A stretch of 64,000 nucleotides of DNA from Streptomyces spectabilis (lineage in GTDB: Bacteria; Actinomycetota; Actinomycetes; Streptomycetales; Streptomycetaceae), in the NCBI RefSeq assembly GCF_008704795.1, contig NZ_CP023690.1, forward strand, positions 4,412,501-4,476,500, in the 5' to 3' direction. How positions within the stretch are numbered: the stretch's first letter is position 1; every line of letters begins with the position of its first letter. Below the pieces are notes generated by a model. The model ran no database searches, was not told where the DNA came from, and was given only the letters and a program-made list of their open reading frames with translations. The position numbers and the translations under genes were made by a program. Positions 6,311 through 62,128 of the stretch are shown in pieces.

Positions 6311-6327
6311 TCTGACGCCCCGTCAGA
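6311..6327. promoter_or_regulatory. Regulon operator site, perfect copy
   Basis: TCTGACG-CCC-CGTCAGA, both arms perfect. It lies between divergent genes, 31 bases upstream of the 6279 start and 26 bases upstream of the SDR start at 6354. Confidence 0.8.
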
Positions 6328-6353
6328 CATAAGGCCAGAGCCGGGAGGCCCGC

Positions 6354-7139
6354 ATGCCGCTGCTCCAGGGAAAGACCGTGATCGTCTCCGGTGTCGGCGC
6401 CGGGCTCGGCCACGAGGTGGCCGCGGCCGTCGTGGCCGAGGGCGGCAACGCCGTGCTCGGCGCCCGCACGGAGGCGAACCTCGCCAAGACCGCCGCCGAG
6501 GTGGACCCCGGGGGCGCCCGCGTCGCGTACCTGCCGACGGACATCACCGAGGAGGTCCAGTGCGGGGCGCTCGCGGACCTCGCCGTCGAGCGGTTCGGCG
6601 ACATCGACGCGCTGGTCCAGGTCGCGGCGTCCGACAGCCACTTCGGCGGGCTCCAGGACGCCGACTTCACCGCCTGGGCGGGCGTCCTGGACGTGAACCT
6701 GCTCGGCTCGCTGCGCATGACCCGGGCGTGCCTGCCCGCCCTGAAGGAGCGCGGCGGCTCGGTCGTCCTCATCGGTACGCAGTCGTCGGTGGCGGCGCCC
6801 TCCCAGGTGCGGCAGGCGGCGTACGCGGCGTCGAAGGGCGCGCTGACCTCGGCGATGTACTCCCTGGCGCGCGAGCTGGGCCCGCACCGGATCCGGGTCA
6901 ACACCGTGCAGCCCGGCTGGATGTGGGGCCCGCCGGTGGAGGCGTACGTGACCCTGACCGCGCGGGCCGAGGGCGTGCCGGAGGCCGAGGTGAAGCGGCG
7001 GCTCACCGAGCGCATGGCGCTGCCCGACCTCGCCACGGACGGGGACGTGGCGCAGGCGTGCGTGTTCCTCGCGTCGGACCGGGCGCGGGCCATCACCGGG
7101 CAGTCGCTCCTGGTGAACGCGGGAGAGCTGATGCGCTGA
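6354..7139 (+). CDS. Short-chain dehydrogenase/reductase
   Basis: 261 residues, classical SDR length. The cofactor loop is G-V-G-A-G-L-G at residues 13-19, the catalytic Ser precedes Y-A-A-S-K, and the protein ends in the usual C-terminal G-Q-S-L-L-V-N-A-G. The N-N-A-G motif is replaced by V-A-A-S, which is uncommon. GGGAGG lies 8 bases before the ATG. It would oxidise or reduce an alcohol/ketone pair with NAD(P). The operator at 6311 places it with the lipid-type catabolic genes further right. Confidence 0.88.
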   Translation: MPLLQGKTVIVSGVGAGLGHEVAAAVVAEGGNAVLGARTEANLAKTAAEVDPGGARVAYLPTDITEEVQCGALADLAVERFGDIDALVQVAASDSHFGGLQDADFTAWAGVLDVNLLGSLRMTRACLPALKERGGSVVLIGTQSSVAAPSQVRQAAYAASKGALTSAMYSLARELGPHRIRVNTVQPGWMWGPPVEAYVTLTARAEGVPEAEVKRRLTERMALPDLATDGDVAQACVFLASDRARAITGQSLLVNAGELMR

Positions 7140-7402
7140 GGCCCCGGCACCGCCAGGCCCCCACCCCTGCCCCCGGCCCGTCGCCGGGGGCTTTCCCGGC
7201 CCTCATTTGGTCACGTACATGAATCGAGATCGTCATCCCGAACGATTTTACTTCCTCTTGACCGTGCGGGCGGTTGTCCGCGCCACGCGGCCGAACCGAC
7301 GATGAGCGGGCCCTTCCCGGCCGTTCCCGCGCCGCACGGGTGAAGTTCCCACCAGATCAACGGAGTTGACCTAGTTCACAAGGCGGACCCCGGGAGGGGG
7401 AT

Positions 7403-8965
7403 ATGAACGGACTCGACTGGGCCGTGCTCATCGGCTACTTCGGCGTGATGGTCGCGATCGGCGTCTGGTCCCACAAGCGCGTGGACAACGTCAGCGACTT
7501 CTTCACCGCGGGCGGCAAGATGCCGTGGTGGCTGTCCGGCATCTCGCACCACATGTCCGGCTACAGCGCGGTGATGTTCACCGGCTACGCAGGAATCGCC
7601 TACACCTACGGCGTCACGTCCTTCGTCACCTGGTCCTTCCCCATCGCGCTCGGCATCGCGATCGGCTCCCGCCTTTTCGCCCCGCGCATCAACCGGCTGC
7701 GCTCGCGCCTGCACGTGGCGTCCCCCCTCGAATACCTCAAGAACCGCTACGACCTGCCCACCCAGCAGGCCCTCGCCTGGTCCGGCATGCTCCTGAAGAT
7801 CGTGGACGTGGGCGCGAAGTGGGCGGCGATCGCGACGCTCCTGTCCGTGTTCACCGGCGTCTCCCTGAACCAGGGCATCCTCATCACCGGTGCCGTCACC
7901 GCCGTCTACTGCACCATCGGCGGCCTGTGGGCGGACGCCCTGACCGAGCTGGGCCAGTTCGTCATCCAGTTGCTCGCCGGGATCGCGATGTTCGTGGCCG
8001 TGGTCGTGGAGCTGGGCGACTACGGCGGCTTCTTCGGCGTCTGGGACCGCCCCGAGCTGGACGGCCACGAGAAGCCCCTGATCGGCCCGTACGGCACGGT
8101 GTTCCTGCTCGCCTTCCTCTTCATCAAGCTCTTCGAGTACAACGGCGGCATGCTCAACCAGGCCCAGCGCTACATGGCCACGGCCAACGCCCGCGAGGCC
8201 TCGCGGTCCGCGAAGCTGTCCGCCGTGCTGTGGCTGGTGTGGCCGCTGGTGCTGTTCTTCCCGATGTGGATGTCGCCGCTCCTCGTCGACGCGAAGAAGC
8301 CCGACGGCTCGGACTCGTACGCCCTGATGACCGAACAGCTCCTTCCGCACGGCCTGTTGGGCCTGGTCATCGTCGGCTTCTTCTCGCACACGATGGCCAT
8401 GTGCTCCTCCGACGCCAACGCCATCGCGGCCGTCTTCACCCGGGACGTGGCACCCGTCCTGTCGCGCAGGGCCCGGCAGTGGACGGACCGCGCGGGACTC
8501 CTCGCCGCCCGCCTCACCACGGTCGTCTTCCTCGGCCTCTCCATGGCGGTGGCCACGCAGGTCAACTCCCCCACCTTCAACGACATCATCACCGTCGTCA
8601 TCAAGTGGGTCGCCGGACTCATGGGCCCCATCGCCATCCCGATGATGCTGGGCCTCCTGCGCACCTTCCGCCGCTCGGGCCCCACGGCCGCGCTCACCAG
8701 CTGGGCCCTGGGGCTGCTCGCCTTCTGGCTGGTCAACTACCCCGTCCACTGGAACGTCGACGGCGGCGTACCCCTCCAGTACCAGGTGTCCATACCGCTG
8801 GCGGTCTCGCTGGTCCTGTACGTCGTCATCGGCTGGGTGAAACCGGAGGACACCCCCGAGCGCGACGCGCTCATCGAGCGCATCAACACGGACGGCGACT
8901 CCGCCGCCGCGGCTCTCCCCCTGCCCGGCCAGGCAGAGCCCGCCCCTTCGAAGCCGGTGTCGTAG
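7403..8965 (+). CDS. Sodium:solute symporter (SSS family)
   Basis: 520 residues with about 13 membrane segments starting at residue 6. SSS features include the early D-F-F-T-A-G-G-K-M-P-W-W motif and the glycine-rich G-Y-S-A-V-M-F-T-G-Y-A-G helix. The family uses the sodium gradient to import sugars, amino acids, vitamins or organic acids; the substrate here cannot be read from sequence. GGGAGGGGG precedes ATG 7403. It is a single-gene unit closed by a strong hairpin at 9020. Confidence 0.9.
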   Translation: MNGLDWAVLIGYFGVMVAIGVWSHKRVDNVSDFFTAGGKMPWWLSGISHHMSGYSAVMFTGYAGIAYTYGVTSFVTWSFPIALGIAIGSRLFAPRINRLRSRLHVASPLEYLKNRYDLPTQQALAWSGMLLKIVDVGAKWAAIATLLSVFTGVSLNQGILITGAVTAVYCTIGGLWADALTELGQFVIQLLAGIAMFVAVVVELGDYGGFFGVWDRPELDGHEKPLIGPYGTVFLLAFLFIKLFEYNGGMLNQAQRYMATANAREASRSAKLSAVLWLVWPLVLFFPMWMSPLLVDAKKPDGSDSYALMTEQLLPHGLLGLVIVGFFSHTMAMCSSDANAIAAVFTRDVAPVLSRRARQWTDRAGLLAARLTTVVFLGLSMAVATQVNSPTFNDIITVVIKWVAGLMGPIAIPMMLGLLRTFRRSGPTAALTSWALGLLAFWLVNYPVHWNVDGGVPLQYQVSIPLAVSLVLYVVIGWVKPEDTPERDALIERINTDGDSAAAALPLPGQAEPAPSKPVS

Positions 8966-34805: not shown

Positions 34806-34827
34806 GGTGAGACGGCCTCCCAATCAA

Positions 34828-34852
34828 GCCCGTCCGGCGTTTGAGGACGAGC
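34828..34852 (-). repeat. Dispersed Streptomyces intergenic repeat (GTCCGGCG type), copy 1
   Basis: A 25-bp element containing GTCCGGCGTTTGAGGACGAG between the LLM and amidohydrolase genes. A reverse-oriented relative is at 59945-59970. From memory it is widespread between Streptomyces genes. Confidence 0.7.
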
Positions 34853-34881
34853 CGCGAAGCGGCAACAACGGGGGACGGGAG

Positions 34882-36020: not shown

Positions 36021-36037
36021 TCTGACGGACCGTCAGA
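36021..36037. promoter_or_regulatory. Regulon operator site, perfect copy
   Basis: TCTGACG-GAC-CGTCAGA, perfect arms, 24 bases upstream of the LLM start at 35997. Lies 75 bases from a second site. Confidence 0.8.
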
Positions 36038-36095: not shown

Positions 36096-36112
36096 ACTGA
36101 CGCTCCGTCAGA
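36096..36112. promoter_or_regulatory. Regulon operator site overlapping the SDR stop codon
   Basis: ACTGACG-CTC-CGTCAGA. It includes the stop codon of the SDR gene at 36108-36110 and is seven helical turns from the site at 36021, so a looped or cooperative arrangement is possible. Confidence 0.7.
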
Positions 36113-37932: not shown

Positions 37933-37949
37933 CCTGACGCCCCATCAGA
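37933..37949. promoter_or_regulatory. Regulon operator site
   Basis: CCTGACG-CCC-CATCAGA, two mismatches between arms. It lies 66 bases upstream of the LLM start at 37867. Confidence 0.65.
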
Positions 37950-39969: not shown

Positions 39970-39986
39970 TCTGACGATCCGTCAGT
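39970..39986. promoter_or_regulatory. Regulon operator site
   Basis: TCTGACG-ATC-CGTCAGT, one mismatch between arms, 21 bases upstream of the amidohydrolase start, where it would cover the promoter. Confidence 0.78.
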
Positions 39987-44883: not shown

Positions 44884-46500
44884 TCAGCCCGTGGCGCCGC
44901 GGTGGCGCAGCTCGCCCTTGAGGACCTTGCCGCTCGCGTTGCGGGGCAGGTCCGGCACGAACTCCACCTGCCGCGGCACCTTGTAGTTCGCCATCTCCCG
45001 CCGCGACCAGGCGATCACGTCGTCGGCGGTGAGCGTCGCGCCGGGACGGCGCACCACGTACGCCTTGCCGACCTCGCCCAGGCGCGCGTCCGCGACCCCG
45101 ACCACGGCGACGTCGGCCACGTCGGGGTGGACGCCGAGGAGTTGCTCTATCTCGGCGGGGTAGGCGTTGAAGCCGCCGACGACGAACATGTCCTTGATCC
45201 GGTCCGTGATGCGGAGGTTGCCGTCCGCGTCGAGGACGCCCACGTCACCCGTCCGCAGCCAGCCGTCGCCGGTCAGGACCTTCTTGGTCTCGGACGGGTC
45301 CTCGTAGTACCCGCTCATCACGTGGTGACCGCGCACCAGGACCTCGCCGGGGCTGCCCGGCGGCAGCGTCTCCCCCGCCGGCGACACGATCCGCACCTCG
45401 GTGCCGGGTATCGCACGGCCGGACGTCGAGGCGACGACCTCCCCGGGGTCGTCCCGGCGGCACATGGTGACGATGCCGCTGGCCTCGGAGAGCCCGTACG
45501 CCGTCAGGACGGTGGCGATGCGCAGCTCGGTGCGGAGCCGCTCCACCAGGCGCAGCGGCACGACCGCGGCGCCCGTCACCACGAGCCGCAGCGCGGACAG
45601 GTCGTGGGCGCCGCGCGCGGGGTGGTCGAGGAGCGCCTGGTGCAGGGTGGGCGGCCCTGGCAGGACGGAGACGCGCTCGGCGGCCACGTTCGCGAGGACG
45701 GCGTCCACGTCGAACACCGGCTGCGGGATCATCGTGGCGCCCCGCATCAGGCAGGCGATGATCCCGGCCTTGTAGCCGAAGGTGTGGAAGAAGGGGTTCA
45801 CGATCAGATAGCGGTCCCCTTCGCGCAGGCCCGCGAGGTCGCTCCAGATCTCGTAGCAGCGCAGGGTCTGGGCGTGGGTGATCACCGCGCCCTTGGGGCG
45901 TCCCGTGGTGCCCGAGGTGTAGACGATGTCCGAGGGCCAGGTGGACTCGACGGCCTCCGCGCGGGCCCGCACCTCGGCGCCCGGCACCGCGTCGCCGCCC
46001 GCGAGGAAGTCCTTCCAGGTGCGGAAGTCGGCGGGGGCGTCGTCGGCGAGCACCACCACCTCCTCCAGGTGCGGCAGGCCGGGCAGCGGCCCGTCGCCGG
46101 TGCCGTCACCGGCCGCGCGCCGCAGCGAGGCGACGTACGACGTGCCGAGGAAGGTGCCGGTGACGAAGAGCAGCCGGGCGCGCGAGCGGCGCAGGACGTA
46201 GGCCGCCTCCGTGCCCTTGAAGCGGGTGTTGATCGGCACGAGCACGGCGCCCGCGCTGACCGCGCCGAGGGCCGACACGATCCAGTCGAGGGTGTTGGGG
46301 GCCCAGACGGCGACGCGGTCCCCGGCCCGCACCCCGCGCGCCAGACACGCGGCCGCGGCCCGCTCGACGCGCTCGCCCAGCTCCTCGTACGTCACGCGCG
46401 TACGGCCCTCCACGACCGCCTCCCGGTCGCCAAAGCGCCGCACCGCCGCCCGGACCAGGCCCGGGACGCTGCCCCACTCCAGGTCACCGCGCATGCTCAC
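44884..46500 (-). CDS. FadD3-like acyl-CoA ligase (AMP-dependent synthetase)
   Basis: 538 residues from GTG 46500, seven bases after GGAGGG; ATG 46494 is an alternative. ANL enzyme motifs: the AMP loop Y-T-S-G-T-T-G-R-P-K-G, T-A-Y-G-L-S-E, T-G-D-V-G and the C-terminal Lys in N-A-S-G-K-V-L-K. The enzyme would activate a free acid as CoA thioester through an acyl-AMP. Length and motifs resemble FadD3, which acts on steroid ring-derived acids, but specificity is open. Divergent from the thiolase operon across a shared operator at 46521. Confidence 0.9.
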   Translation of the reverse strand: MSMRGDLEWGSVPGLVRAAVRRFGDREAVVEGRTRVTYEELGERVERAAAACLARGVRAGDRVAVWAPNTLDWIVSALGAVSAGAVLVPINTRFKGTEAAYVLRRSRARLLFVTGTFLGTSYVASLRRAAGDGTGDGPLPGLPHLEEVVVLADDAPADFRTWKDFLAGGDAVPGAEVRARAEAVESTWPSDIVYTSGTTGRPKGAVITHAQTLRCYEIWSDLAGLREGDRYLIVNPFFHTFGYKAGIIACLMRGATMIPQPVFDVDAVLANVAAERVSVLPGPPTLHQALLDHPARGAHDLSALRLVVTGAAVVPLRLVERLRTELRIATVLTAYGLSEASGIVTMCRRDDPGEVVASTSGRAIPGTEVRIVSPAGETLPPGSPGEVLVRGHHVMSGYYEDPSETKKVLTGDGWLRTGDVGVLDADGNLRITDRIKDMFVVGGFNAYPAEIEQLLGVHPDVADVAVVGVADARLGEVGKAYVVRRPGATLTADDVIAWSRREMANYKVPRQVEFVPDLPRNASGKVLKGELRHRGATG

Positions 46501-46520: not shown

Positions 46521-46537
46521 GCTGACTATCCGTCAGA
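46521..46537. promoter_or_regulatory. Regulon operator between CoA ligase and thiolase operon
   Basis: GCTGACT-ATC-CGTCAGA. It is 21 bases upstream of the ligase start and 65 bases upstream of the thiolase start, so one site can control both directions. Confidence 0.75.
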
Positions 46538-46601: not shown

Positions 46602-47852
46602 ATGACTTCCCCCAGAAAACCTCGGACAACCGACGGTTCCACAGGACCCGCGGCCACCGGAAGGGCCGCACGGCCCACGGGTCGTGTCAGAAGGCCCGAG
46701 GGAACGGCCTCCCTCAAGGACGCCACGGCGATCGTCGGCATCGGGCAGACCCCCTTCGCCCGGCAACTCCCCGAGAGCGAGAAGGCCTTGGCGTGCCGTG
46801 CCGTCCTGGCCGCCCTCGCCGACGCGGGCATCTCCCCCGCCGAGGTCGACGCCTTCGCCTCGTACACCATGGAGGAGACCGACGAGGTGGAGGTGGCGAA
46901 GGCCATCGGCGCCGGTGACGTGACCTTCTTCAGCAAAGCGGGGTACGGGGGCGGCGGTTCCTGCGCCACGCTCGCCCATCTCGCCGCCGCGATCACCACG
47001 GGGCAGGCCACGGTCGGCGTCGCCTGGCGGTCCCGCAAGCGCGGCAGCGGACCCCGCCCCTGGAAGAACACCACGACCCAACTCCCCACCCCCGCCCAGT
47101 GGACCCGGCCCTTCGGGCTCCTTCGTCCTGTCGACGAGATAGCGATGCTCACCCGCCGCTATATGCACGAGTACGGCGCGAGCCGCGATCACCTCTTCAA
47201 CGTGGCCCTGGCCTGCAGGAATCGCGCCAACCAGAATCCCGCCGCGATCATGTACGAGCGTCCGCTCACCCGGGACATGTATATGACCTCGCGGTGGATC
47301 AGCGAACCGCTCTGCCTCTTCGACAACTGCCTGGAGACCGACGGGGCGCTGGCCTGCGTCCTCGTCTCCGCCGCCCGCGCCCGCGACTGCCGCCACCGGC
47401 CCGTGTACGTCCACTCCGCCGCCCAGGGGCTGCCCGCCCAGCACCACGGCATGGTCAACTACTGGAACGACGACCCGCTCTCCGGACCCGCCTGGACCGC
47501 CGCCCGACACCTGTGGAAACACGCCGACTTCGGCCCCGAGGACGTCGACGTCGCCCAGATCTACGACGCGTTCACCGCCCTGGTCCCGCTCTCCCTGGAG
47601 GGCTACGGCTTCTGCGACCGGGGCGAGGGCGGCGCGTTCACCGAGGGCGGCGCCCTGGAGATCGGCGGCCGCCTCCCCCTCAACACGGCGGGCGGCGGCC
47701 TCAGCGAGGCGTACGTGCACGGCTTCAACCTGATCACGGAAGGCGTACGGCAGTTGCGGGGCGCGAGCACGGCACAGGTGCCCGGGGCGGCGACGTGCCT
47801 GGTCACGGCGGGCGAGGGGGTGCCGACGTCAGCGGTGCTCCTGCGCAACTGA
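46602..47852 (+). CDS. Ltp2-like lipid-transfer thiolase (retro-aldolase type)
   Basis: 416 residues from ATG 46602 (GGAGG seven bases upstream). The thiolase-fold lipid-transfer protein pattern is present: D-V-A-Q-I-Y-D-A-F near residue 318 and N-T-A-G-G-G-L-S-E near 366. Ltp2 proteins, paired with a DUF35 protein, split the C-C bond of steroid side-chain beta-hydroxyacyl-CoA. A DUF35 gene follows 26 bases later and an enoyl-CoA hydratase after it. A Cys (about residue 121) sits where true thiolases have their nucleophile, unlike in the paralogue at 57378. Confidence 0.88.
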   Translation: MTSPRKPRTTDGSTGPAATGRAARPTGRVRRPEGTASLKDATAIVGIGQTPFARQLPESEKALACRAVLAALADAGISPAEVDAFASYTMEETDEVEVAKAIGAGDVTFFSKAGYGGGGSCATLAHLAAAITTGQATVGVAWRSRKRGSGPRPWKNTTTQLPTPAQWTRPFGLLRPVDEIAMLTRRYMHEYGASRDHLFNVALACRNRANQNPAAIMYERPLTRDMYMTSRWISEPLCLFDNCLETDGALACVLVSAARARDCRHRPVYVHSAAQGLPAQHHGMVNYWNDDPLSGPAWTAARHLWKHADFGPEDVDVAQIYDAFTALVPLSLEGYGFCDRGEGGAFTEGGALEIGGRLPLNTAGGGLSEAYVHGFNLITEGVRQLRGASTAQVPGAATCLVTAGEGVPTSAVLLRN

Positions 47853-47878
47853 GGAGCTACCGAGGAGCTGTGATCCCC

Positions 47879-48322
47879 ATGAACGAACCCCTGCTGACCC
47901 CCGTCGTCGACGACGACGGCGCCCCCTTCTGGGAGTACGCGGCCCGCGGCGAGCTGCGCGTCCAGGCCTGCGCGGCGGACGGCTGCGGCCAACTCCGCTT
48001 CCCGCCCCGCCCCTGCTGCCCGCACTGCGGGTCCTTCGCCACGAGCTGGCGCCGGATGAGCGGCAAGGGCCGGATCTGGTCGTACGTCGTCCCGCACCCG
48101 CCGCTCCTGCCCGCGTACGCCGCGCTCGTCCCCTACCACCCGGTCGTCGTGGAGCTCGCCGACGCCCCGCTCGTCCGGCTCGTCGGCAACCTCGTCGCGC
48201 GGGCGGGGGCGCCGCTGGACTCCGTGCCGCCGGGCAGGGTCCGCGTCGGGGCCCGGGTCCAGGTCGTCTTCGCCGACCAGGGCGGCGTCGTCGTGCCGCG
48301 CTGGGTCCTGGAGCGACCGTGA
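47879..48322 (+). CDS. DUF35 Zn-ribbon/OB-fold acyl-CoA-binding protein
   Basis: 147 residues from ATG 47879 (GAGGAG 11 bases upstream; a GTG at 47870 is possible). Zinc ribbon C-x4-C ... C-P-H-C-G at about residues 31-51, then an OB fold. DUF35 proteins are obligate partners of lipid-transfer thiolases, as ChsH2 or the Ltp2 partner. The stop overlaps the hydratase start by four bases. Confidence 0.88.
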   Translation: MNEPLLTPVVDDDGAPFWEYAARGELRVQACAADGCGQLRFPPRPCCPHCGSFATSWRRMSGKGRIWSYVVPHPPLLPAYAALVPYHPVVVELADAPLVRLVGNLVARAGAPLDSVPPGRVRVGARVQVVFADQGGVVVPRWVLERP

Positions 48323-49104
48323 CGGCGGCGTCCGCGGGCCTGCGGGTGGAGCGGGACCAGGACACCGGCGTGGCCGTCGTCACCCTGGACCGCCCGGCCC
48401 GCCACAACGCTATCGATCTCCCCATGGCGGCCGAACTCGCCTCCGCCTGGCGGCAGTTGCGCTACGACGACACCGTCCGGGCCGTGGTCCTCACCGGCGC
48501 GGGCGACCGGGCGTTCTGCACGGGCATCGACCGCGGGGCCGAGGTGCCGCAGCCGTCATCGCCCTACTCCCTCGACGACCCGCTGCTCACGGTCGGGCCC
48601 AAGGCCAACGACCTGTGGAAGCCGGTGCTCGCCGCCGTCAACGGCATGGCCTGCGGCGGGGCCTTCTATCTGCTGGGCGAGGCGGAGTTCGTCCTCGCCG
48701 CCGAGCACGCCACGTTCTTCGATCCGCATACGACGTACGGGATGGTCAGCGCGTACGAGACCATCCACATGGCGCAGCGGATGCCGTTCGGGGAGGTGGC
48801 GCGCATGGCCCTCATGGGGGCGGCCGAGCGGATGTCCGCGCAGCGGGCGTACGAGGTGGGGCTCGTCTCCGAGCTGTGCCCCGGCGACGGGCTGCTCCCG
48901 GCGGCCCTCCGGGCGGCGGCGACCGTCGCCTCCTTCCCCACCGAGGCCGTGCAGGGCACGGTGCGGGCGCTCTGGTCCACCAAGGCGGCGGCCCGGGCGG
49001 GGGCCCTCCCCCTGGCTCCCCACCTCATCACCCTCGGCAACGCCCCGCCCGCCCACCAGACGACCCTCTTCACCACCCGCCCCCACACCTACGACCTCCG
49101 CTGA
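48319..49104 (+). CDS. Enoyl-CoA hydratase/isomerase (crotonase family)
   Basis: 261 residues from GTG 48319 (GTGA overlap with the DUF35 gene). Crotonase features: F-C-T-G-I-D-R-G (oxyanion loop variant) and N-G-M-A-C-G-G-A-F-Y near residue 110. It hydrates a 2-enoyl-CoA to the 3-hydroxyacyl-CoA that a lipid-transfer retro-aldolase would then cleave, so the three genes form a logical sequence. The usual paired Glu residues are not both obvious, so isomerase activity is possible. Confidence 0.88.
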   Translation: MTAASAGLRVERDQDTGVAVVTLDRPARHNAIDLPMAAELASAWRQLRYDDTVRAVVLTGAGDRAFCTGIDRGAEVPQPSSPYSLDDPLLTVGPKANDLWKPVLAAVNGMACGGAFYLLGEAEFVLAAEHATFFDPHTTYGMVSAYETIHMAQRMPFGEVARMALMGAAERMSAQRAYEVGLVSELCPGDGLLPAALRAAATVASFPTEAVQGTVRALWSTKAAARAGALPLAPHLITLGNAPPAHQTTLFTTRPHTYDLR

Positions 49105-51042: not shown

Positions 51043-53487
51043 TTAGCGGGCTGTGGCTGTGCCTCGTTCCGCGTCGAGCGCGTACACGCACCGGTCCTTG
51101 CTGCACGCATAAACCACCCCGTCCCGCACCACCGGCGCCCCCGTGATCTCACCACCGGTGGCGAGCTTCCAGCGGAGGCGGCCGTCGTCGGCCTTGAGGG
51201 TGTAGAGGAGGTGGTCGGTGGCGCCGAAGTGGATGCGGCGGTCGGCGACGACCGGGGAGCCGACGACCTCGCCGCCCGCCTGGAAGCGCCACTTGGGGGT
51301 GCCGGTGACGGCGTCGAGGGTGTAGAGGCCCTTGCCGCTGCCGACGTGGACATGCCCGTCGGCGACCAGGACGGGGTCGACGGAGGAGCGGGACTCGGTG
51401 GCGATGCGCCAGCGGTCGCGGCCGTCCGTGGCGTCGAGGGCGTACACGGTGCCCAGGTAGTCGGCGAGGTAGACGCCGCCCCCGGTGACGGCGGGCCCCG
51501 GCGCGAAGGCGGGCGGGGAGAGGAACGCGGCGGGCGCCTCGAAGTGCCAGCGCACATGTCCGGCCGCGACGTCCAGGGCGAGGACGCGGGTGCCCGCGGC
51601 CACGTACACGAAGCCGTCGTCGGCCTGGGTCACGCGGACGGGCACGCCGCCGCAGGACGCGGCGTCGCCGATGGGGTACGACCAGCGCTCGATGCCGCTG
51701 CGGGCGTCGACGGCGCGGAGCCGGGCGTCCTTCCAGACGTACACCGTGCCGTCGCGGATGACGGGCGCGGCCTCGGGCGTCTCGAACTCGGTCTGGGCGC
51801 CGGTGATCTCCCAGAGCTTCTCGCCGTTGGCGGCCTCCCAGCCCTGGACGCCGCCGCCGCGCGTGGCGGTGACGACGGTGCCCCGGTCGGCCTGGAGGGC
51901 GTACACCCAGGCGTCGGTGGACAGGCGCCACAGGTCGGTGCCGTCGGAGCCGTCGAGGGCGTAGAGGGTGGGCCCGTCGGACGCGTGGATGCGGCCGTCC
52001 GCGACGGCCATGGACCAGGCGACGTCGCGGGTCTTGAAGCTGCGCCGCCCGGTGCCCACGTCGAGGGCGTGGACCTCGAAGGAGGTGACGTAGACGAGGT
52101 TCCCGGCGACGGCGGGCGTGCCCCACACGTCGTTCGACATGCGGAACCGCCAGGGCCGCCAGGAGCCGCCCGCGGCGGCCCCGGCGCCGGTGGGCGCGGC
52201 GGCGGGCCCGGTGCCGTTGGCGCGCGGCTGCGCCGGGGCGGGCGCCGCGGAGCGGGACCAGGATCCGGCGAGCCCGGAGGGCTGCGGCGCGGCGGCGGCG
52301 CGGGCCTCGGCGACCCGGGGCCCGGGCCCGATCGGCACCGGGGCGCCCGCGAGCTGCACGGGCCCGGCGTCGGGCAGGCCCCCGTGGAGGTCGGGCGCGC
52401 CGCCGTGGAAGGGGGCGCGCGACGCGGCGTGCGAGGGCGCGGACGGGGCCGCCTGCGACGGGGCGTGCGCGGGCATGGCGGGCGCCTGCCGCGGCGGGGG
52501 CGGCATGGACACGGGCGCGGACGCGGCCCCGGCGCGGCTGTTGCGCCCCACGGAGCCCGCGGTGGCGGCGGCGCGCGCGGGCGGCCGTCCGCCGCGCCGG
52601 GCCTCGATGAGGGCCACGGCCCGCTCGGGCAGCCAGGCGGACGCGGTGCCGCTGTCGTCGCCGGAGCTCTCGGAGGCGAACAGGTGCGGGGCGAGCTGGG
52701 CCTGGAGGTCGGCGGGGCTGGGCCGCAGCGTGGCGTCCATCTGCATGCAGGACTCGATGAGCGGCCGCAGCTCGTCGGGCAGGCCCTCCAGGTCGGGGCC
52801 CTCGCGAAGGAGCATGAAGACGGTCTCGACGGGGTTGGCGCCGTGGAACGGCGCGTGCCCGGTGGCGGCGAAGACGAGGGTGGAGCCGAGGGAGAAGACA
52901 TCGCTGGCGCCGGTGACGCTGCGGGAGTCCTTCGCCTGCTCGGGCGACATGTAGGCGGGGGTGCCGACCGCGACGTTCGTCATGGTCAGACGAGTGTTGG
53001 AGACGCCGGACGCGATGCCGAAGTCGATGACGCGGGGGCCGTCCTCGACGACGAGGACGTTGGACGGCTTCAGGTCGCGGTGCACCAGGCCCGCGCCGTG
53101 GATGGACTCCAGGGCCTCGGCGACGCCCGCGGCGAGCCAGCGCACGGCCTGGGTGGGCAGCGGCCCGTGCTCGTTCACTATCTCTTCGAGCGAGGGCGCG
53201 GGCACGTACGCCGTGGCGAGCCAGGGCACGGCGGCGCGCGGGTCGGCGTCCACCACCGCGGCCGTGTAGAAGCCGGAGACGGCGCGCGCGGCCTCCACCT
53301 CGCGCGTGAAGCGGACCCGGAACAGCTGGTCCTCGGCGAGCTCCGTCCGCACCGTCTTGATCGCCACGCGCCGTCCGGACGCGGAGCGCGCGAGATATAC
53401 GAGCCCCATGCCGCCGGCACCGAGCCGCCCAAGGACCTCGAACGGGCCGATCCGCCGCGGATCGTGCTGCGTCAGCTGGTCCACCAC
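51043..53487 (-). CDS. afsK: AfsK, serine/threonine protein kinase with PQQ-like beta-propeller
   Basis: 814 residues from GTG 53487 (GGAGG ten bases upstream; starts M-V-D-Q-L-T-Q-H-D). Kinase domain about 12-270 with G-R-L-G-A-G-G-M-G, V-A-I-K-T, H-R-D-L-K-P-S-N and D-F-G. A Pro/Ala linker reaches about residue 440, followed by seven or so PQQ-type repeats (V-Y-A-L-D, L-Y-T-L, W-K-L). No membrane helix. AfsK autophosphorylates and phosphorylates AfsR, in response to signals including S-adenosylmethionine. About 6.7 kb separates it from the small peptide gene after afsS. Confidence 0.94.
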   Translation of the reverse strand: MVDQLTQHDPRRIGPFEVLGRLGAGGMGLVYLARSASGRRVAIKTVRTELAEDQLFRVRFTREVEAARAVSGFYTAAVVDADPRAAVPWLATAYVPAPSLEEIVNEHGPLPTQAVRWLAAGVAEALESIHGAGLVHRDLKPSNVLVVEDGPRVIDFGIASGVSNTRLTMTNVAVGTPAYMSPEQAKDSRSVTGASDVFSLGSTLVFAATGHAPFHGANPVETVFMLLREGPDLEGLPDELRPLIESCMQMDATLRPSPADLQAQLAPHLFASESSGDDSGTASAWLPERAVALIEARRGGRPPARAAATAGSVGRNSRAGAASAPVSMPPPPRQAPAMPAHAPSQAAPSAPSHAASRAPFHGGAPDLHGGLPDAGPVQLAGAPVPIGPGPRVAEARAAAAPQPSGLAGSWSRSAAPAPAQPRANGTGPAAAPTGAGAAAGGSWRPWRFRMSNDVWGTPAVAGNLVYVTSFEVHALDVGTGRRSFKTRDVAWSMAVADGRIHASDGPTLYALDGSDGTDLWRLSTDAWVYALQADRGTVVTATRGGGVQGWEAANGEKLWEITGAQTEFETPEAAPVIRDGTVYVWKDARLRAVDARSGIERWSYPIGDAASCGGVPVRVTQADDGFVYVAAGTRVLALDVAAGHVRWHFEAPAAFLSPPAFAPGPAVTGGGVYLADYLGTVYALDATDGRDRWRIATESRSSVDPVLVADGHVHVGSGKGLYTLDAVTGTPKWRFQAGGEVVGSPVVADRRIHFGATDHLLYTLKADDGRLRWKLATGGEITGAPVVRDGVVYACSKDRCVYALDAERGTATAR

Positions 53488-54738: not shown

Positions 54739-55386
54739 ATGACAGGACAGGTACGAACCGTCGACGGCCGAGTGGCCGGTCGACGCGGTCAGGCGACACG
54801 TCAGAAACTGCTCGACTGCCTGAGCGAGATGCTCAGCTCCTCCCCCTACCGCGACGTGAAGGTCATCGATGTCGCCCGGAAGGCGGGCACTTCACCGGCG
54901 ACGTTCTACCAGTACTTCCCGGACGTCGAAGGCGCGGTCCTGGAGATCGCCGAGCAAATGGCCACCGAGGGCGCGGAGTTGACCCACCTCCTGGAGGGCC
55001 GCTCCTGGGTCGGCAAGGCAGCCTTGCAGACGTCGCAGGACCTCGTCGACGGCTTCCTGGAGTTCTGGCGGAAGAACGACGCGATCCTCCGGGTGGTCGA
55101 CCTGGGCGCCGCCGAGGGCGACAAGCGCTTCTACAAGATCCGGATGAAGATCCTGAACTCGGTGAACAACTCCCTTGCGGACACCGTCAAGGAGCTCCAG
55201 TCCAAGGGCAAGGTCGACAAGGACGTGAGCCCCGCCGCGATGGCCGGCTCGCTGGTGGCGATGCTCGCCGCGGTGGCGTCCCATCAGCGCGGATTCCAGA
55301 CATGGGGCGTCAAACAGGCCGAACTGAAGCCGAATCTGGCCGTGTTGGTCCATATGGGCGTCACGGGCAAGAAGCCCACGAAGTAA
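54739..55386 (+). CDS. TetR-family regulator upstream of the afsK locus
   Basis: 215 residues from ATG 54739. TetR helix-turn-helix A-R-K-A-G-T-S-P-A-T-F-Y-Q-Y-F-P-D-V-E preceded by R-R-G-Q-A-T-R-Q-K-L-L. The ligand domain is helical with F-L-E-F-W-R-K-N and no catalytic features. It lies inside the stretch carrying the 17-bp operators, flanked on the right by the acyl-CoA dehydrogenase cluster, and so is a candidate for their repressor. Its own upstream region lacks the operator, so the link is inference. Confidence 0.9.
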   Translation: MTGQVRTVDGRVAGRRGQATRQKLLDCLSEMLSSSPYRDVKVIDVARKAGTSPATFYQYFPDVEGAVLEIAEQMATEGAELTHLLEGRSWVGKAALQTSQDLVDGFLEFWRKNDAILRVVDLGAAEGDKRFYKIRMKILNSVNNSLADTVKELQSKGKVDKDVSPAAMAGSLVAMLAAVASHQRGFQTWGVKQAELKPNLAVLVHMGVTGKKPTK

Positions 55387-55498: not shown

Positions 55499-55993
55499 TC
55501 ACCCGCCGGACGGGCCTTCCGTCCGGCGTTCGAGGCGGAATATCCGGATCTCCCGGTCCACCCGCTTCTGGTACGCCGCGTACGGCGGCCAGAACTCCAG
55601 GGCCGCCGCCCAGGCGCGGGCCCGCTCGTCGCCCGTGAGCAGCCGGGCCCGCACCGGCACGTCCCGGCCCCGCCAGCTGATCTCCGCCTCCGGGTGGGCC
55701 AGCAGATTGGCGGTCCACGCGGGGTGGGCGGGGCGCCCGAAGTTGGAGCCGACCAGCAGCCAACCGCCCTCCCGCCACTCCACACAGGCCAGCGGCGTCC
55801 GCCGCGCGAGTCCGCTTCTGGCACCCCGCGCCGTGAGCACGAGCCCCGGCAGCATGCGCGCGCTCAGCAGCACCCTTCCGCGCGTGAGCCGGTGCACCGC
55901 GCGGTCCACGGCGGGCACCACGTGCGGGGCGACCCGGGCGAAGGCGCGGGTCGCCGACACCCTCCGTACGAACCGGACGCCGGGCGCGGCCAT
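55499..55993 (-). CDS. Deazaflavin (F420)-dependent nitroreductase-family protein
   Basis: 164 residues from ATG 55993. Ddn-like split-barrel pattern: L-L-T/L-T-A-R-G-A-R-S-G, R-R-T-P-L-A-C, G-G-W-L-L-V-G-S-N-F-G-R-P-A-H-P-A-W and N-L-L-A-H-P-E-A. These enzymes use reduced F420, made with the help of fbiC in this window. TGATG overlap with the acyl-CoA dehydrogenase means one operon. Confidence 0.88.
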   Translation of the reverse strand: MAAPGVRFVRRVSATRAFARVAPHVVPAVDRAVHRLTRGRVLLSARMLPGLVLTARGARSGLARRTPLACVEWREGGWLLVGSNFGRPAHPAWTANLLAHPEAEISWRGRDVPVRARLLTGDERARAWAAALEFWPPYAAYQKRVDREIRIFRLERRTEGPSGG

Positions 55994-57231
55994 CAGACCG
56001 CCACCCGCGCGGACGCCACGGCGTCGGCCTGCCCCGTGAACAGTCCGGCGCGTTCGGCCGCGTACGCCCGCAGCCGGTGCGCGGGGCCGAAGAGCAGCTC
56101 GTCGCCCGACGCCCGTTTGAAGAACAGGTGCGCGTCGTGCTCCCAGGTGAAGCCGATCCCGCCGTGCAGCTGGACGGCCTCCGACGCCGCCGTCCGCAGC
56201 GCGTCGAGGGCACACGCGAGCGCGATCCCCGCGACGGGCTCGGGCGTCACCCCCTCCAGGCCCGGCGGAACCGCCGCGCCCGCCGCCCACGCCGCGTAGT
56301 ACGCCGCGGAGCGCGCCGCGCACACCGCCACGTACACGTCCGCGAGGCGGTGCTTCACCGCCTGGAACGATCCGACCGGGCGGCCGAACTGCTCGCGCTC
56401 CTTGACGTGTCCGAGGGTGCGCGCGAGCGCCTCGTCCGCGGCGCCGACGGCCTCGGCGGCGAGCACCGCGGCGGCCCGCTCCCCCACGTCCGCGAGGGCG
56501 GGGAGCACGTCGTCGCCCGCGCCTTCACCCAGCAACTCCGCCTCTACGTCCCGGAGTTCGAGACGGGCCCGGGCGCGCGTCTCGTCGAGGGCGGTCCGCC
56601 GGGTGCGGACGAGCCCGGGGGCTTCGCCGCGTACGAGGAACAGCAGGGTCCGCGAGCGGGCGAAGCCGCCGGTGTGCGCGGCGACGAGCAGCAGCCCCGC
56701 GCTGTGCCCGTCGAGGACCTGGTCCACCTGTCCGTACAGCCGCCAGGAGCCGGTGGCGGCGGTGGCCTGGACGCCGCCCGCGCGGCCGCCGCCCGCCCAG
56801 GCGCCGCCGTTGTCGCCGGTGAGGCCGAGCGCGGCGCCGAGCGCCGCCCCGGGCACGGCGAGGGCGGCCGTGAGGTCGCCGGACGCGACCCGGGGCAGGA
56901 GCGCGGCGCGCTGCCCATCGGTGCCGAGGCGGAGCAGCAGCGGCGCGGCGAGCACGGCGGTGGCGAACAGCGGCGACGGGGCGAGCGTCCGGCCCAGCTC
57001 CTCCCCGGCCAGGGCGAGTTCGGTGACCCCGCAGCCCGCACCGCCGTACTCCTCGGGCAGCGCGAGCCCGGACAGGCCGAGCCGCCCCGCGAGGGCGCCC
57101 CAGAGCGCGGCGTCGTACCCGGCGGGGGTGCGTACGGCGGCGCGGACCCCGTCGGCGGCCCGGCGCTTGGTGACGACCTCGCGCACGGCGCGGCGGATCT
57201 CGTCCTGCTCCACTGTGCAGGCGGCGTCCAT
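55993..57231 (-). CDS. Acyl-CoA dehydrogenase, FadE-type
   Basis: 412 residues from ATG 57231. FAD acyl-CoA dehydrogenase pattern: L-P-E-E-Y-G-G-A-G, R-E-Q-F-G-R-P-V-G-S-F-Q-A-V-K-H and E-A-V-Q-L-H-G-G-I-G-F-T-W-E. The usual catalytic Glu position in the C-terminal domain reads D-A-H-L-F-F-K-R-A, as in steroid-side-chain FadE subunits that work as heteromers. The C-terminal domain is otherwise short for a lone enzyme. Operator 57263 is 32 bases upstream. Confidence 0.87.
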   Translation of the reverse strand: MDAACTVEQDEIRRAVREVVTKRRAADGVRAAVRTPAGYDAALWGALAGRLGLSGLALPEEYGGAGCGVTELALAGEELGRTLAPSPLFATAVLAAPLLLRLGTDGQRAALLPRVASGDLTAALAVPGAALGAALGLTGDNGGAWAGGGRAGGVQATAATGSWRLYGQVDQVLDGHSAGLLLVAAHTGGFARSRTLLFLVRGEAPGLVRTRRTALDETRARARLELRDVEAELLGEGAGDDVLPALADVGERAAAVLAAEAVGAADEALARTLGHVKEREQFGRPVGSFQAVKHRLADVYVAVCAARSAAYYAAWAAGAAVPPGLEGVTPEPVAGIALACALDALRTAASEAVQLHGGIGFTWEHDAHLFFKRASGDELLFGPAHRLRAYAAERAGLFTGQADAVASARVAV

Positions 57232-57262: not shown

Positions 57263-57279
57263 ATCTGACGAACCGTCAC
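57263..57279. promoter_or_regulatory. Regulon operator upstream of acyl-CoA dehydrogenase
   Basis: TCTGACG-AAC-CGTCACG, two mismatches in the right arm, 32 bases before the acyl-CoA dehydrogenase start. A second site for the divergent thiolase is 79 bases away. Confidence 0.7.
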
Positions 57280-57357
57280 GTGCGGCGACGGGCCGACATG
57301 TTAGGACCGCGAGGGACAGATGCCCAGGCCCGCGACGGCCTCCCGCCGCCCGGGTCG

Positions 57358-57374
57358 TCTGATGTACCGTCAGA
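57358..57374. promoter_or_regulatory. Regulon operator abutting the thiolase start codon
   Basis: TCTGATG-TAC-CGTCAGA ends three bases before ATG 57378. No ribosome site fits in that space, so the thiolase mRNA may be leaderless, or the true start lies further in. Confidence 0.75.
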
Positions 57375-57377: not shown

Positions 57378-58562
57378 ATGCCGAGCCCCTCGCGCACAGG
57401 AACCCGCAAGGTCGCCGTCGTGGGGGTCGCCCTCGCCGACTGCGGCCGCGTGGACGACGCCACGCCCTACGCCCTGCACGCCCAGGCCGCCCGGCGCGCG
57501 CTCGCCGACGCCGGGCTCGGCCGGGACGCCGTGGACGGGCTCGCCTCCGCGGGCCTCGGCACGCTCGCACCCGTCGAGGTCGCGGAGTATCTGGGCCTCC
57601 GCCCGCGCTGGGTGGACTCCACCGCCGTGGGCGGCGCCACCTGGGAGGTCATGGCGGCGCACGCGGCGGACGCGATCGCGGCGGGGCACGCCAACGCCGT
57701 CCTGCTCGTGTACGGCTCGACGGCGCGCGCGGACGTCAGGGCGGGCCGCCGCACGGGCAACCTGTCCTTCGGGGCGCGCGGCCCCCTCCAGTTCGAGGTC
57801 CCCTACGGGCACTCGCTGATCGCCAAGTACGCGATGGCGGCCCGGCGCCACATGCACGAGTACGGCACCACGCTCGAGCAGCTCGCGTCCGTGGCCGTGC
57901 AGGCGCGGGCCAACGCGGCGACCAACCCGGAGGCGATGCACCGCGCGCCGATCACGGTCGACGACGTGCTCGGCGGGCCCATGATCGCCGACCCGTTCAC
58001 CAGGCTGCACTGCTGTCTGCGCTCCGACGGCGGCTGCGCGGTCCTGCTCGCGGCCGAGGACCTCGTGCGCGACTGCGCGCCCCGGCCCGTCTGGGTCCTC
58101 GGCACCGGCGAGCACGTCTCGCACACCGCCATGTCCGAGTGGCGGGACTTCACCGTCTCCCCCGCGGCCGTCAGCGGGCGGCTCGCCTTCGAGCGGGCCG
58201 GGGTGCGGCCCGCCGACATCGACGTGGCGCAGATCTACGACGCCTTCACCTATATGACCCTGGTGACGCTTGAGGACCTCGGGTTCTGCGCGAAGGGCGA
58301 GGGCGGCGCGTTCGTGGAGAAGGGGCGCCTTCTGCGGGGCGGCGAGCTGCCGACCAACACCGACGGCGGCGGGCTCTCCGCCCAGCACCCCGGCATGCGC
58401 GGCCTGTTCCTGCTCGTGGAGGCGGTGCGGCAGCTGCGCGGCGACGCGGGCGAGGCCCGCCAGGTCCGGGGCCCGAACGGCCGCCTCCCCCAACTGGCGG
58501 TGGCATCGGGCACAGGCGGCTGGTTCTGCTCATCGGGAACGGTGGTCCTAGGCCGCGACTGA
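57378..58562 (+). CDS. Lipid-transfer thiolase (Ltp2-like), second copy
   Basis: 394 residues from ATG 57378. Same fold as 46602: D-V-A-Q-I-Y-D-A-F near residue 282 and N-T-D-G-G-G-L-S near 329. The nucleophile position has A-T-W in place of S-C-A, so this copy lacks the thiolase Cys, consistent with retro-aldol chemistry rather than thiolysis. Its presumed DUF35 partner is not adjacent but at 60071, and is expressed from its own operator. No Shine-Dalgarno sequence precedes the ATG. Confidence 0.88.
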   Translation: MPSPSRTGTRKVAVVGVALADCGRVDDATPYALHAQAARRALADAGLGRDAVDGLASAGLGTLAPVEVAEYLGLRPRWVDSTAVGGATWEVMAAHAADAIAAGHANAVLLVYGSTARADVRAGRRTGNLSFGARGPLQFEVPYGHSLIAKYAMAARRHMHEYGTTLEQLASVAVQARANAATNPEAMHRAPITVDDVLGGPMIADPFTRLHCCLRSDGGCAVLLAAEDLVRDCAPRPVWVLGTGEHVSHTAMSEWRDFTVSPAAVSGRLAFERAGVRPADIDVAQIYDAFTYMTLVTLEDLGFCAKGEGGAFVEKGRLLRGGELPTNTDGGGLSAQHPGMRGLFLLVEAVRQLRGDAGEARQVRGPNGRLPQLAVASGTGGWFCSSGTVVLGRD

Positions 58563-59970: not shown

Positions 59971-60060
59971 AATGGCGCCAGTGCGGACCGGACCCTGTCC
60001 GCGGGCCGACACGGGACGGCCGACCCGCGCCGGAGCCCTGCCGGCCCGTCCGGCCCCGGA

Positions 60061-60078
60061 CGGGCTGAATTCAGCCCG
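60061..60078 (-). terminator. Perfect 18-bp palindrome over the DUF35 stop codon
   Basis: CGGGCTGAATTCAGCCCG is fully self-complementary and contains the stop codon of the leftward DUF35 gene. It could form a hairpin that ends that transcript, though a loop-free palindrome can also be a protein site. Confidence 0.5.
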
Positions 60079-60493
60079 GTTCGAACACCGGCACCGCCAG
60101 GCCCTCCGCCGCCTCGCGGAAGGCGACGCGCAGCTCCATGCCGATCCGCAGGTCCCGCTCCGGGCAGCGGACGACCTCGGTCATCATCCGCGGGCCCTCC
60201 GCGAGGTCGACGACGGCGGCGACGTACGGCACGCGCGCGTCGAAGGGCGGCAGGTCGTTGCGGTGGACGACGGACCAGGTGTAGAGCGTGGCGCGGCCGC
60301 GGGACGGCTCCCAGGTGACGTCCTCGCTCCAGCAGTGCGGGCAGAACTCGCGCGGGTAGTGGTGCGCGCGCCCGCAGCCGGGCGCGCGGCAGCGGCGGAT
60401 CAGCAGCAGCCCCTCGGCGGCCGCGTCCCAGTAGGTCCGGGTGAAGGCGTCAACTTCGGGGAGGTCGGAGCGGGGTCGTCCGTCGCCCGTCAT
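60071..60493 (-). CDS. DUF35 Zn-ribbon/OB-fold acyl-CoA-binding protein, second copy
   Basis: 140 residues from ATG 60493. Zinc ribbon C-R-A-P-G-C-G and C-P-H-C near residues 35-54, then an OB-fold with V-P-Y-V-A-A-V-V-D-L. By family it should partner the thiolase at 57378. Operator 60574 lies 81 bases upstream. Confidence 0.88.
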   Translation of the reverse strand: MTGDGRPRSDLPEVDAFTRTYWDAAAEGLLLIRRCRAPGCGRAHHYPREFCPHCWSEDVTWEPSRGRATLYTWSVVHRNDLPPFDARVPYVAAVVDLAEGPRMMTEVVRCPERDLRIGMELRVAFREAAEGLAVPVFEPG

Positions 60494-60573
60494 CGGCCGG
60501 GGCGTGCGGTGCCGCTGGGGCGGTGGGTGTCCATGCGGGAATCTCTCCTGATCAGCGGGGCCGAAGAGGCGTA

Positions 60574-60590
60574 ACTGATGGGGTGTCAGT
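60574..60590. promoter_or_regulatory. Regulon operator upstream of the second DUF35 gene
   Basis: ACTGATG-GGG-TGTCAGT, the weakest copy (two arm mismatches), 81 bases before the DUF35 start. Confidence 0.55.
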
Positions 60591-60661
60591 TCAGCGCAAC
60601 GGTCAGGCCGCGCGCAAGAGGCCGTCGTACGTGATCAATTCGCAACCGGTTTCGGACTTGT

Positions 60662-60682
60662 CCGTCACCCATCAAGTGACGG
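60662..60682. promoter_or_regulatory. Inverted repeat upstream of the flavin monooxygenase
   Basis: CCGTCAC-N7-GTGACGG, perfect arms, 19 bases before the ATG at 60701. It uses the same GTCA/TGAC core as the regulon operator but with arms reversed and a wider spacer, so it may be a different site. Confidence 0.5.
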
Positions 60683-60700
60683 CGTGGCTACTCTCCCGTC

Positions 60701-61894
60701 ATGGCCGACTCGAACCCACCGCCCCCCAGCACCGACCGGCCCCTCCCGGAGAGACCAGGGCCGGTCCGCCCCGTGTACGTCATCGGCGGCGGCCCCGGCG
60801 GCCTCGCCGTCGCGGCCGCGCTGCGCGCACGCGGCGTACGCGCCGTGGTGCTTGAGAAGTCCGACCGCGTCGGCGCGTCCTGGCGCGGCCACTACGACCG
60901 CCTCCGGCTGCACACCACGCGCCGCCTCTCCGCGCTGCCCGGCCTCGCGATGCCGCGCTCGTTCGGCCGCTGGGTCCGCAGGGACGACGTGGTCCGCTAT
61001 CTGGAGAAGTACGCGGAGCACCACGAACTGGACGTCGTCACCGGCGTCGAGGTGACCCGCCTGGAGCGCACGGCCGACGACGACGGCTGGCTCCTGCGGG
61101 CCACCGGAGGGCGCGAGCTGACCGGCCGCGCGGTGATCGTCGCCACCGGCTACAACCACACCCCGCACGTCCCCGACTGGCCCGGCGCCGACACCTTCCC
61201 CGGCGACCTCCGGCACGCCTCCGCCTACCGCGACCCCACCCCCTACGCCGGCCAGGACGTCCTCGTCGTCGGCGTCGGCAACACGGGCGCGGAGATCGCC
61301 GTCGACCTCGCGGAGGGCGGCGCCGCCCGCGTCCGCCTCGCCGTGCGCACCGCGCCGCACATCGTGCGCCGCTCCACCGCGGGCTGGCCCGCGCAGCGCT
61401 CCGGCATCCTGTGCCGCAGGCTGCCGGTGCCGGTCGTCGACCGGCTCGGCCGCGCCATCGCCCGCGTCAGCGTGCCCGACCTGTCCGCGCACGGCCTGCC
61501 GCGCCCCGCGACCGGCCTGTACTCGCGCGCCCGAGACGGCGCCATCCCGGTGCAGGACGTCGGGCTCATCGACGCGGTGCGCGCGGGCCGGGTCGAACCC
61601 GTCGCCGCCGTCGAGTCCTTCGAGGGCGGCAAGGTGCTCCTCGCCGACGGCAGCCGCGTCGGGCCCGACGCCGTCATCGCCGCCACCGGCTACCGCCGCG
61701 CCCTGGAGCCCCTCCTCGGCCACCTCGGCGTCCTCGACGCGCGCGGCCGCCCCCGCGCGCACGGCCCGCGCACCGCCCCCGAGGCCCCGGACCTGTACTT
61801 CACCGGCTTCACCAACCCCATCAGCGGAATGCTGCGGGAGCTGGCGAGGGACGCGGGCCGGATCGCCCGCGCAGTGGCGCGGTCCGCGGCCTAG
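60701..61894 (+). CDS. Flavin-containing monooxygenase (YUCCA/Baeyer-Villiger-like)
   Basis: 397 residues from ATG 60701. Two dinucleotide loops: FAD site I-G-G-G-P-G-G-L-A at about 28-36 and NADPH site V-G-V-G-N-T-G-A near 189, with A-T-G-Y-N-H-T-P-H-V-P and a C-terminal F-T-G-F-T-N-P-I-S-G. Such class B monooxygenases add oxygen to heteroatoms or ketones. Divergent from the DUF35 gene across the region with the operator at 60574. Confidence 0.9.
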   Translation: MADSNPPPPSTDRPLPERPGPVRPVYVIGGGPGGLAVAAALRARGVRAVVLEKSDRVGASWRGHYDRLRLHTTRRLSALPGLAMPRSFGRWVRRDDVVRYLEKYAEHHELDVVTGVEVTRLERTADDDGWLLRATGGRELTGRAVIVATGYNHTPHVPDWPGADTFPGDLRHASAYRDPTPYAGQDVLVVGVGNTGAEIAVDLAEGGAARVRLAVRTAPHIVRRSTAGWPAQRSGILCRRLPVPVVDRLGRAIARVSVPDLSAHGLPRPATGLYSRARDGAIPVQDVGLIDAVRAGRVEPVAAVESFEGGKVLLADGSRVGPDAVIAATGYRRALEPLLGHLGVLDARGRPRAHGPRTAPEAPDLYFTGFTNPISGMLRELARDAGRIARAVARSAA

Positions 61895-62087
61895 GCCTGG
61901 CCCCGGGCACCCGTACGCAACCGGCCAGTTGCCCGAGGCGCTCTTGGCAGGCGGTGGTTCGTACGGTTCGGTGGAAGGGCGGGTGCGCAACCGCCGCAGC
62001 GGCCCCACGCGCCCCGCCGGGCGGAGCCCTGCCGCGCGCCGGTCGCGGAGCCCGCCGCCCGCCACGGACTTTGCCCGCAGCCCCATT

Positions 62088-62104
62088 CCTGACAGGCCGT
62101 CAGT
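62088..62104. promoter_or_regulatory. Regulon operator, first of a tandem pair
   Basis: CCTGACA-GGC-CGTCAGT. Centre lies 24 bases from the centre of the next site. Confidence 0.68.
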
Positions 62105-62111
62105 TCAGTAA

Positions 62112-62128
62112 TCTGACTAAGCGTCAGT
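62112..62128. promoter_or_regulatory. Regulon operator, second of a tandem pair
   Basis: TCTGACT-AAG-CGTCAGT, 94 bases upstream of the ATG at 62223. The 24-base spacing places both sites about two helical turns apart on nearly the same face. Confidence 0.72.

Follow-up and report, generated by a model that had tools for sequence, protein, structure and literature searches.

Dispersed regulons under TetR-type repressors are known in Actinobacteria from KstR and KstR2, which control steroid catabolism in Mycobacterium and Rhodococcus. Another TetR-type repressor, EthR of M. tuberculosis, acts on a single operon, with a long operator upstream of one monooxygenase gene. In the available text of PMC7807495, the KstR2 regulon is listed with echA20, ipdAB and fadD3, and SRTF1 of Nocardioides simplex appears there and in the available text of PMC7062782 as a progesterone-responsive TetR protein, whose 22-bp palindrome is reported from three sites within a single gene island (PMC7062782). 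Here we describe a 17-bp palindrome, TCTGACG-N3-CGTCAGA, that recurs in a stretch of 64,000 nucleotides from Streptomyces spectabilis (positions 4,412,501–4,476,500 of the 9.81-Mb chromosome, a single contig; hereafter the window). Judged from sequence, it is very probably the operator of the TetR protein encoded at 54739–55386 of the window, which would repress catabolic operons for coenzyme A (CoA) thioesters until an acyl-CoA releases it. No description of this operator or regulon was found in the literature searched, which included few subscription papers. A preliminary description of the stretch had proposed that a TetR-type dimer controls a scattered set of acyl-CoA genes, a reading that the placement of the sites and their predicted targets support; to it we add the predicted regulator, the occurrence of the site in several classes and the connection with steroid-type genes.

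Distribution of the palindrome

A mismatch scan of the window (at most three mismatches) gave 13 matches, whereas 100 shuffled sequences gave 4.6 on average and 11 at most. The scan recovered ten of the eleven sites listed previously, including two exact copies (6311–6327 and 36021–36037), three with one mismatch (36096–36112, 39970–39986 and 57358–57374), four with two mismatches (37933–37949, 46521–46537, 57264–57280 and 62112–62128) and one with three (62088–62104). The eleventh, 60574–60590, reads ACTGATGGGGTGTCAGT and has four mismatches, and a position formerly given as 57263 is corrected here to 57264. We also scored the window with a matrix derived from 44 intergenic sites in Streptomyces loci, which adds a weak outer A/T and a central A/T to the stated letters. 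The eleven sites took places 1–9, 11 and 12, ranks that are partly circular because the matrix takes in the window's own best sites; place 10 was a match at 54789, inside the TetR coding sequence. Scores of at least 7 were observed 11 times against 1.5 expected, and 60574 scored 6.6. The earlier count of eleven copies of one repeat holds in that all are among the twelve best window scores, and it goes too far for 62088 and 60574, which are degenerate. All sites have the constant 3-bp spacing that had been claimed. Genes were called from sequence composition by a simple script rather than by a published gene finder, and the reported nearness to start codons was confirmed after refinement of starts: 36021 lies 23 bp upstream of the start of a luciferase-like (LLM) oxidoreductase gene (35997, minus strand), and 37933 lies 65 bp upstream of the ATG of another (37867, minus strand).

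In the whole genome, 14 places with at most one mismatch were located (four exact and ten with one mismatch). A separate count gives 15, and a search for the fifteenth found no such site in the chromosome's final 20 kb. All 14 located sites are intergenic (random positions of these loci, 15.3%), and 11 are followed by a start codon within 150 bp (random positions, 8.2%); the loci were picked around sites, so both percentages hold for those loci and not for the whole genome. Twelve of the 14 adjoin acyl-CoA or oxidoreductase genes, with short-chain dehydrogenase (SDR), LLM, MaoC, thiolase, DUF35, amidohydrolase, acyl-CoA dehydrogenase (FadE), CoA ligase and nitronate monooxygenase as target families. 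The preliminary description had named random placement relative to starts, or equal abundance inside genes, as signs of a chance motif; the 14 best sites located are instead found in promoter regions and none is coding. The median distance from site to start was 86 bp in our calls for this genome and 45 bp in distant loci, and the palindrome, a putative operator, overlaps or adjoins promoters as operators of TetR-family repressors do. Additional site clusters were present at 4.48–4.49 Mb and 3.11–3.14 Mb.

Some sites do not fit this picture. Two of the 14 are at base 205, at the chromosome end, and at 7954965, between ABC transporter genes; further misfits are the pair 10535/10558 and several two-mismatch sites inside genes. 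Only 22 of the 40 two-mismatch sites examined in this genome are intergenic, and about half of this class look chance-like. The other 18 could be cited in favor of chance palindromes in promoter regions with no single regulator, an explanation that we consider extremely improbable, given exact sites in most Streptomyces genomes and none for a reversed control (see below), the conserved block at the SDR promoter and the functional bias of the targets. As a separate observation, the region near the left chromosome end (L005:10535-10574) contains two operator-like palindromes 23 bp apart, with matrix scores of 17.3 and 21.2; no called gene lies within 250 bp downstream, and the match at base 205 is a third.

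Exact sites were detected in 49 of 61 Streptomyces genomes; the reversed pattern occurred in none of the 61. At one mismatch or fewer, 49 genomes had 7–32 places and 12 had 1–4 (reversed control, 0–2 per genome). The site midpoint was outside called genes in 29 of the 30 exact-site loci examined, many of which repeat the gene pairs of the window. When the SDR promoter of the window was aligned with those of five other Streptomyces genomes, the half-sites of 6311 fell within the main conserved block. Across the phylum, the exact site was present in 20 of 296 genomes, and site-rich genomes outside Streptomyces had as many as 10 sites within 4.2 Mb, ahead of the same families. Distant targets were analyzed in 20 stretches from eight genomes, with 31 sites, one of which had no gene within 250 bp. 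By Pfam scan, 27 of the 30 downstream genes encode acyl-CoA, oxidoreductase, aldehyde dehydrogenase (ALDH) or amidohydrolase enzymes: eight acyl-CoA dehydrogenases, three DUF35-type proteins, three SDRs, two enoyl-CoA hydratases, two AMP-ligases, two LLM proteins, two Amidohydro_3 proteins, and one each of thiolase, Amidohydro_2, CoA-transferase III, IpdA-type CoA-transferase and ALDH. The remaining three are a TetR_C_38 TetR gene and two without a Pfam match. Because the same gene families follow the site in other actinobacterial classes, the site predates Streptomyces; together with the TetR_C_38 protein it occurs in Streptomyces and in other classes, Microthrixaceae included.

A TetR_C_38 protein as the predicted regulator

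Two TetR genes were compared as candidate regulators, a KstR orthologue at 3.13 Mb and the window gene 54739–55386 (plus strand, protein P0002). The latter encodes a TetR_N helix-turn-helix followed by an all-helical ligand domain, TetR_C_38 (PF19352), an architecture that places it in the TetR family, and in a fold test it had the EthR fold. We detected PF19352 in 20 of the 296 genomes, 16 of which also had the exact site (Fisher test, 2e-19). Excluding Streptomyces, nine genomes had both, four the site only, two PF19352 only and 272 neither (1.2e-12). A second sample of 198 genomes from another class gave 44 with both, three with the site only, eight with PF19352 only and 143 with neither; among the 172 of these new to the analysis, the counts were 40, one, seven and 124 (p ~1e-30). 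Fisher tests count related genomes as independent, so these p-values are overstated, and the consistency between classes carries more weight. In four genomes of the first sample, a single exact site was present without PF19352: two of these sites were in coding sequence (ABC transporter, ribosomal protein) and the other two had no recognizable target adjacent.

The site and the gene are also physically linked. The distance between the TetR gene and its nearest exact site ranged from 121 bp to 26 kb in seven distant genomes (combined p 6.5e-10, or 1.6e-8 with p=1 assigned to two genomes in which no distance could be measured). An operator was present at the TetR gene's own promoter in six of the 26 other-class loci, with its center between 33 and 116 bp ahead of the estimated start, where ~0.035 would be expected (chance rate 0.0059 per kb), and in two of 13 earlier distant loci. 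The recognition helix GTSPATFYQYF was found in 20 of 20 Streptomyces, seven of 13 distant and 22 of 26 other-class loci; the remaining helices have one to three changes, mostly outside SPATFYQYF.

Several observations weigh against this assignment. PF19352 was detected without an exact site in G109, G160, G228 and G303 of the first sample and in eight genomes of the second, and G431 has two exact sites and no PF19352 match. Within Streptomyces, P0002 is present in 61 of 61 genomes, so that its presence does not discriminate, and no operator was found at the TetR promoter in 30 loci. The 12 low-site Streptomyces genomes (at most four sites) retain the TetR gene with an intact recognition helix. 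FadE and thiolase homologues are absent from the stretch of at most ~10 kb on either side of TetR in ten of these 12, and likewise in four of the eight genomes examined that have at least seven sites (G016, G027, G043 and G049, of which G016 and G027 have TetR loci cut by a contig end); G002 has no FadE beside TetR. Loss of TetR-adjacent targets explains the low site counts only partly. We take 54739–55386 to be the putative orthologue of SCO4421 of S. coelicolor from its neighborhood, in which the kinase gene 51043–53487 is presumably afsK. In the available text of PMC3878966, SCO4421 is described as a TetR gene near afsK whose expression is lowered in a whiA mutant and whose promoter is active in spore chains, and a further point against the assignment is that its mutant had no detected phenotype according to that text.

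Three details of these loci are recorded here. The low-site genomes are G009, G026, G028, G030, G035, G036, G042, G044, G046, G047, G050 and G051; their leftover sites have no common target, with the exception of G035, in which the SDR/cyclase promoter site is kept. The PF19352 match of G109 (G109:C74:75370-75759) reads across one TGA stop, perhaps because of gene decay or of an assembly error. The match at 54789 was rejected as an autoregulatory operator: it lies within codons for GQATRQK and was present at two mismatches or fewer in two of 30 loci.

The KstR orthologue (P0001; L003:10293-10916) could read the site with a shifted DNA specificity. It lies within the 3.11–3.14 Mb stretch that holds further sites, and its presence correlates with the site among the 296 genomes of the first sample, the only one in which this comparison was made (outside Streptomyces, nine genomes with both, four with the site only, nine with KstR only and 265 with neither; 1e-9), which also tells against the window TetR as regulator. 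However, this correlation is weaker than that of PF19352; G043, with 21 sites, and G336, with four exact sites, had no KstR match at the thresholds used; and the nine non-Streptomyces genomes with KstR only lack exact sites. In addition, a KstR-type box, TAGAACAAGTTTCA (L003:10031-10044; box form AACNNGTT), lies upstream of the KstR orthologue. On its distribution, the KstR orthologue fits less well than the PF19352 TetR and was set aside; we regard its role here as very unlikely. With a KstR orthologue and a KstR-type box in the genome, two steroid-type TetR systems may coexist in it.

A different regulator, co-inherited with the PF19352 TetR, might also read the palindrome. Co-occurrence alone cannot separate co-inherited genes, and most Streptomyces genomes have more than 100 first-look TetR candidates, of which two were compared here. 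Physical linkage and operators at PF19352 promoters in distant genomes, and a recognition helix strongly conserved alongside a conserved operator, make this explanation improbable and favor the TetR_C_38 protein itself. A dimer of this protein would occupy the palindrome, on or beside promoters of CoA-thioester catabolic operons dispersed in the genome, and keep these operons repressed; an acyl-CoA intermediate of the pathway may then bind the C-terminal pocket and release the protein from DNA. We infer repression because the sites are close to starts, with 57358 only 3 bp from an ATG, a position from which a dimer on the DNA would obstruct the promoter.

Window genes and the probable substrate

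The operator at 6311 is shared by divergent genes, an SDR (6354–7139, plus) and a protein without a Pfam match (5353–6279, minus), homologues of which, 77–81% identical, occupy the same position in five other Streptomyces genomes. Both 36021 and 36096 precede the LLM gene 34882–35997 (minus, TTG start), and 36096 overlaps the stop of an SDR gene (36108–36893, minus); an Amidohydro_3 gene (33072–34805, minus) and an ALDH gene (31603–33075, minus) are likely part of the operon behind 36021, as their spacing suggests. The LLM gene behind 37933 (36905–37867, minus) belongs to TIGR03619, and 39970 is upstream of an Amidohydro_2 gene (38672–39940, minus). The divergent promoter at 46521 separates an acyl-CoA ligase (44884–46494, minus), which exceeds the FadD3-family cut-off (781.6 bits, cut-off 657), from the operon of a lipid-transfer-protein thiolase (46602–47852, plus; 571.1 bits, cut-off 469), behind which lie a DUF35/ChsH2-type gene (47870–48322, plus) and an enoyl-CoA hydratase gene (48319–49104, plus). 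Upstream of FadE (55993–57231, minus; best NCBIfam match IpdE2, 188 bits, below the cut-off of 450) is 57264, and 57358 precedes the ATG (57378) of a thiolase-like gene (57378–58562, plus). The degenerate site 60574 lies between a DUF35/ChsH2-type gene (60071–60493, minus) and a flavin-containing monooxygenase (60701–61894, plus); the equivalent divergent region of G053 (monooxygenase / small protein-DUF35) has a one-mismatch site at L199:3739. Both 62088 and 62112 are upstream of a CoA-binding/ATP-grasp ligase gene (62223–63998, plus), which continues to the window edge.

A steroid- or isoprenoid-like substrate is probable, at odds that we put at about even, because cyp125 is among the targets, as is echA20-ipdAB in distant classes. 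The P450 behind a two-mismatch site (L004:3201) is CYP125-like, with ~501–513 bits to its ten best solved chains, all CYP125 or steroid C26-monooxygenase entries, and in G034 the counterparts of this P450 and of a thiolase, recognized from their N-terminal sequences only, flank an exact site (L051). The FadE at L001:11588-12730 is closest to structure 4x28 (ChsE4-ChsE5). IpdA was identified via 6con (IpdAB; 322 bits); homologues were present in 11 of 12 genomes searched, and eight loci were examined. The operator was found at the echA20-ipdAB region in five of five distant loci (exact in two, two mismatches in three). In Streptomyces it was present in none of three such loci (L266, L267, L268), which speaks against the proposed assignment, and no site with two mismatches or fewer was listed near the IpdA homologue of S. 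spectabilis at 7.760 Mb.

Alternatively, the TetR_C_38 protein may be the right regulator of a regulon for general fatty acid or xenobiotic degradation rather than steroids, a reading to which we give slightly less than even weight. The available text of PMC4810484 reports 55 of 57 Streptomyces genomes without a steroid pathway, which counts against a steroid substrate, and none of the LLM, amidohydrolase and ALDH genes is specific to steroids. On the other side, the targets include cyp125, the FadE closest to 4x28, the FadD3-family ligase and echA20-ipdAB. In G336 (L154), Amidohydro_3, LLM and ALDH genes are again grouped with operators, as at 31603–35997 in the window, which points to a shared branch outside the known steroid genes.

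More tentatively, the TetR_C_38 protein could be a third, phylum-wide regulator of the catabolism of steroids or related polycyclic isoprenoids, older than the mycobacterial arrangement and tying Streptomyces lipid catabolism to sporulation. If so, the ring C/D operon, KstR2-controlled in mycobacteria, would be under a TetR_C_38 protein in distant actinobacterial classes, and the tie to sporulation would lie in a Streptomyces orthologue that is whiA-dependent and expressed in spore chains. In any case, a probable operator with its probable regulator, and predicted targets, are now available for a TetR branch without an assigned catabolic function in the literature searched. A function for SCO4421 becomes directly testable, as an S. 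coelicolor deletion mutant exists, and the operator may serve as a genome-mining handle for unassigned CoA-thioester pathways. The data also suggest that steroid-type catabolism in Actinobacteria has controls beyond KstR, KstR2 and SRTF1.

Comparison with described regulators

Two S. coelicolor TetR genes are related to this locus by position. SCO4421 is close to afsK, in the same neighborhood as the window gene, and SCO4385 belongs to the same chromosomal region by locus number. The latter was set aside as regulator on its published consensus, which in the available text of PMC12093943 is 23 bp long; a genome search reported there had to allow two mismatches to find it, and the six positions obtained are all in coding regions. 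SRTF1 resembles the system described here as a further actinobacterial steroid-responsive TetR besides KstR and KstR2, but its 22-bp palindrome and its three reported sites set it apart. EthR shares the fold of P0002; however, the two proteins are only ~20% identical, and the sites reported here are short (17 bp) and located at many operons.

With KstR and KstR2 the TetR_C_38 system shares a TetR-type repressor, a dispersed regulon and the same enzyme families, whereas the operator and the C-terminal domain (PF19352 in P0002) are different. The KstR operator, TNNAACNNGTTNNA, differs from the site studied, TCTGACGNNNCGTCAGA. The KstR orthologue of S. spectabilis is a separate gene (P0001, 146 bits to KstR), and KstR2 chains were among its PDB matches; the ten PDB matches of P0002 included no KstR and no KstR2 chain, and no dedicated search for a KstR2 orthologue was made. 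At echA20-ipdAB the palindrome is present in the distant loci, where the TetR_C_38 system would act like KstR2, and absent from those of Streptomyces.

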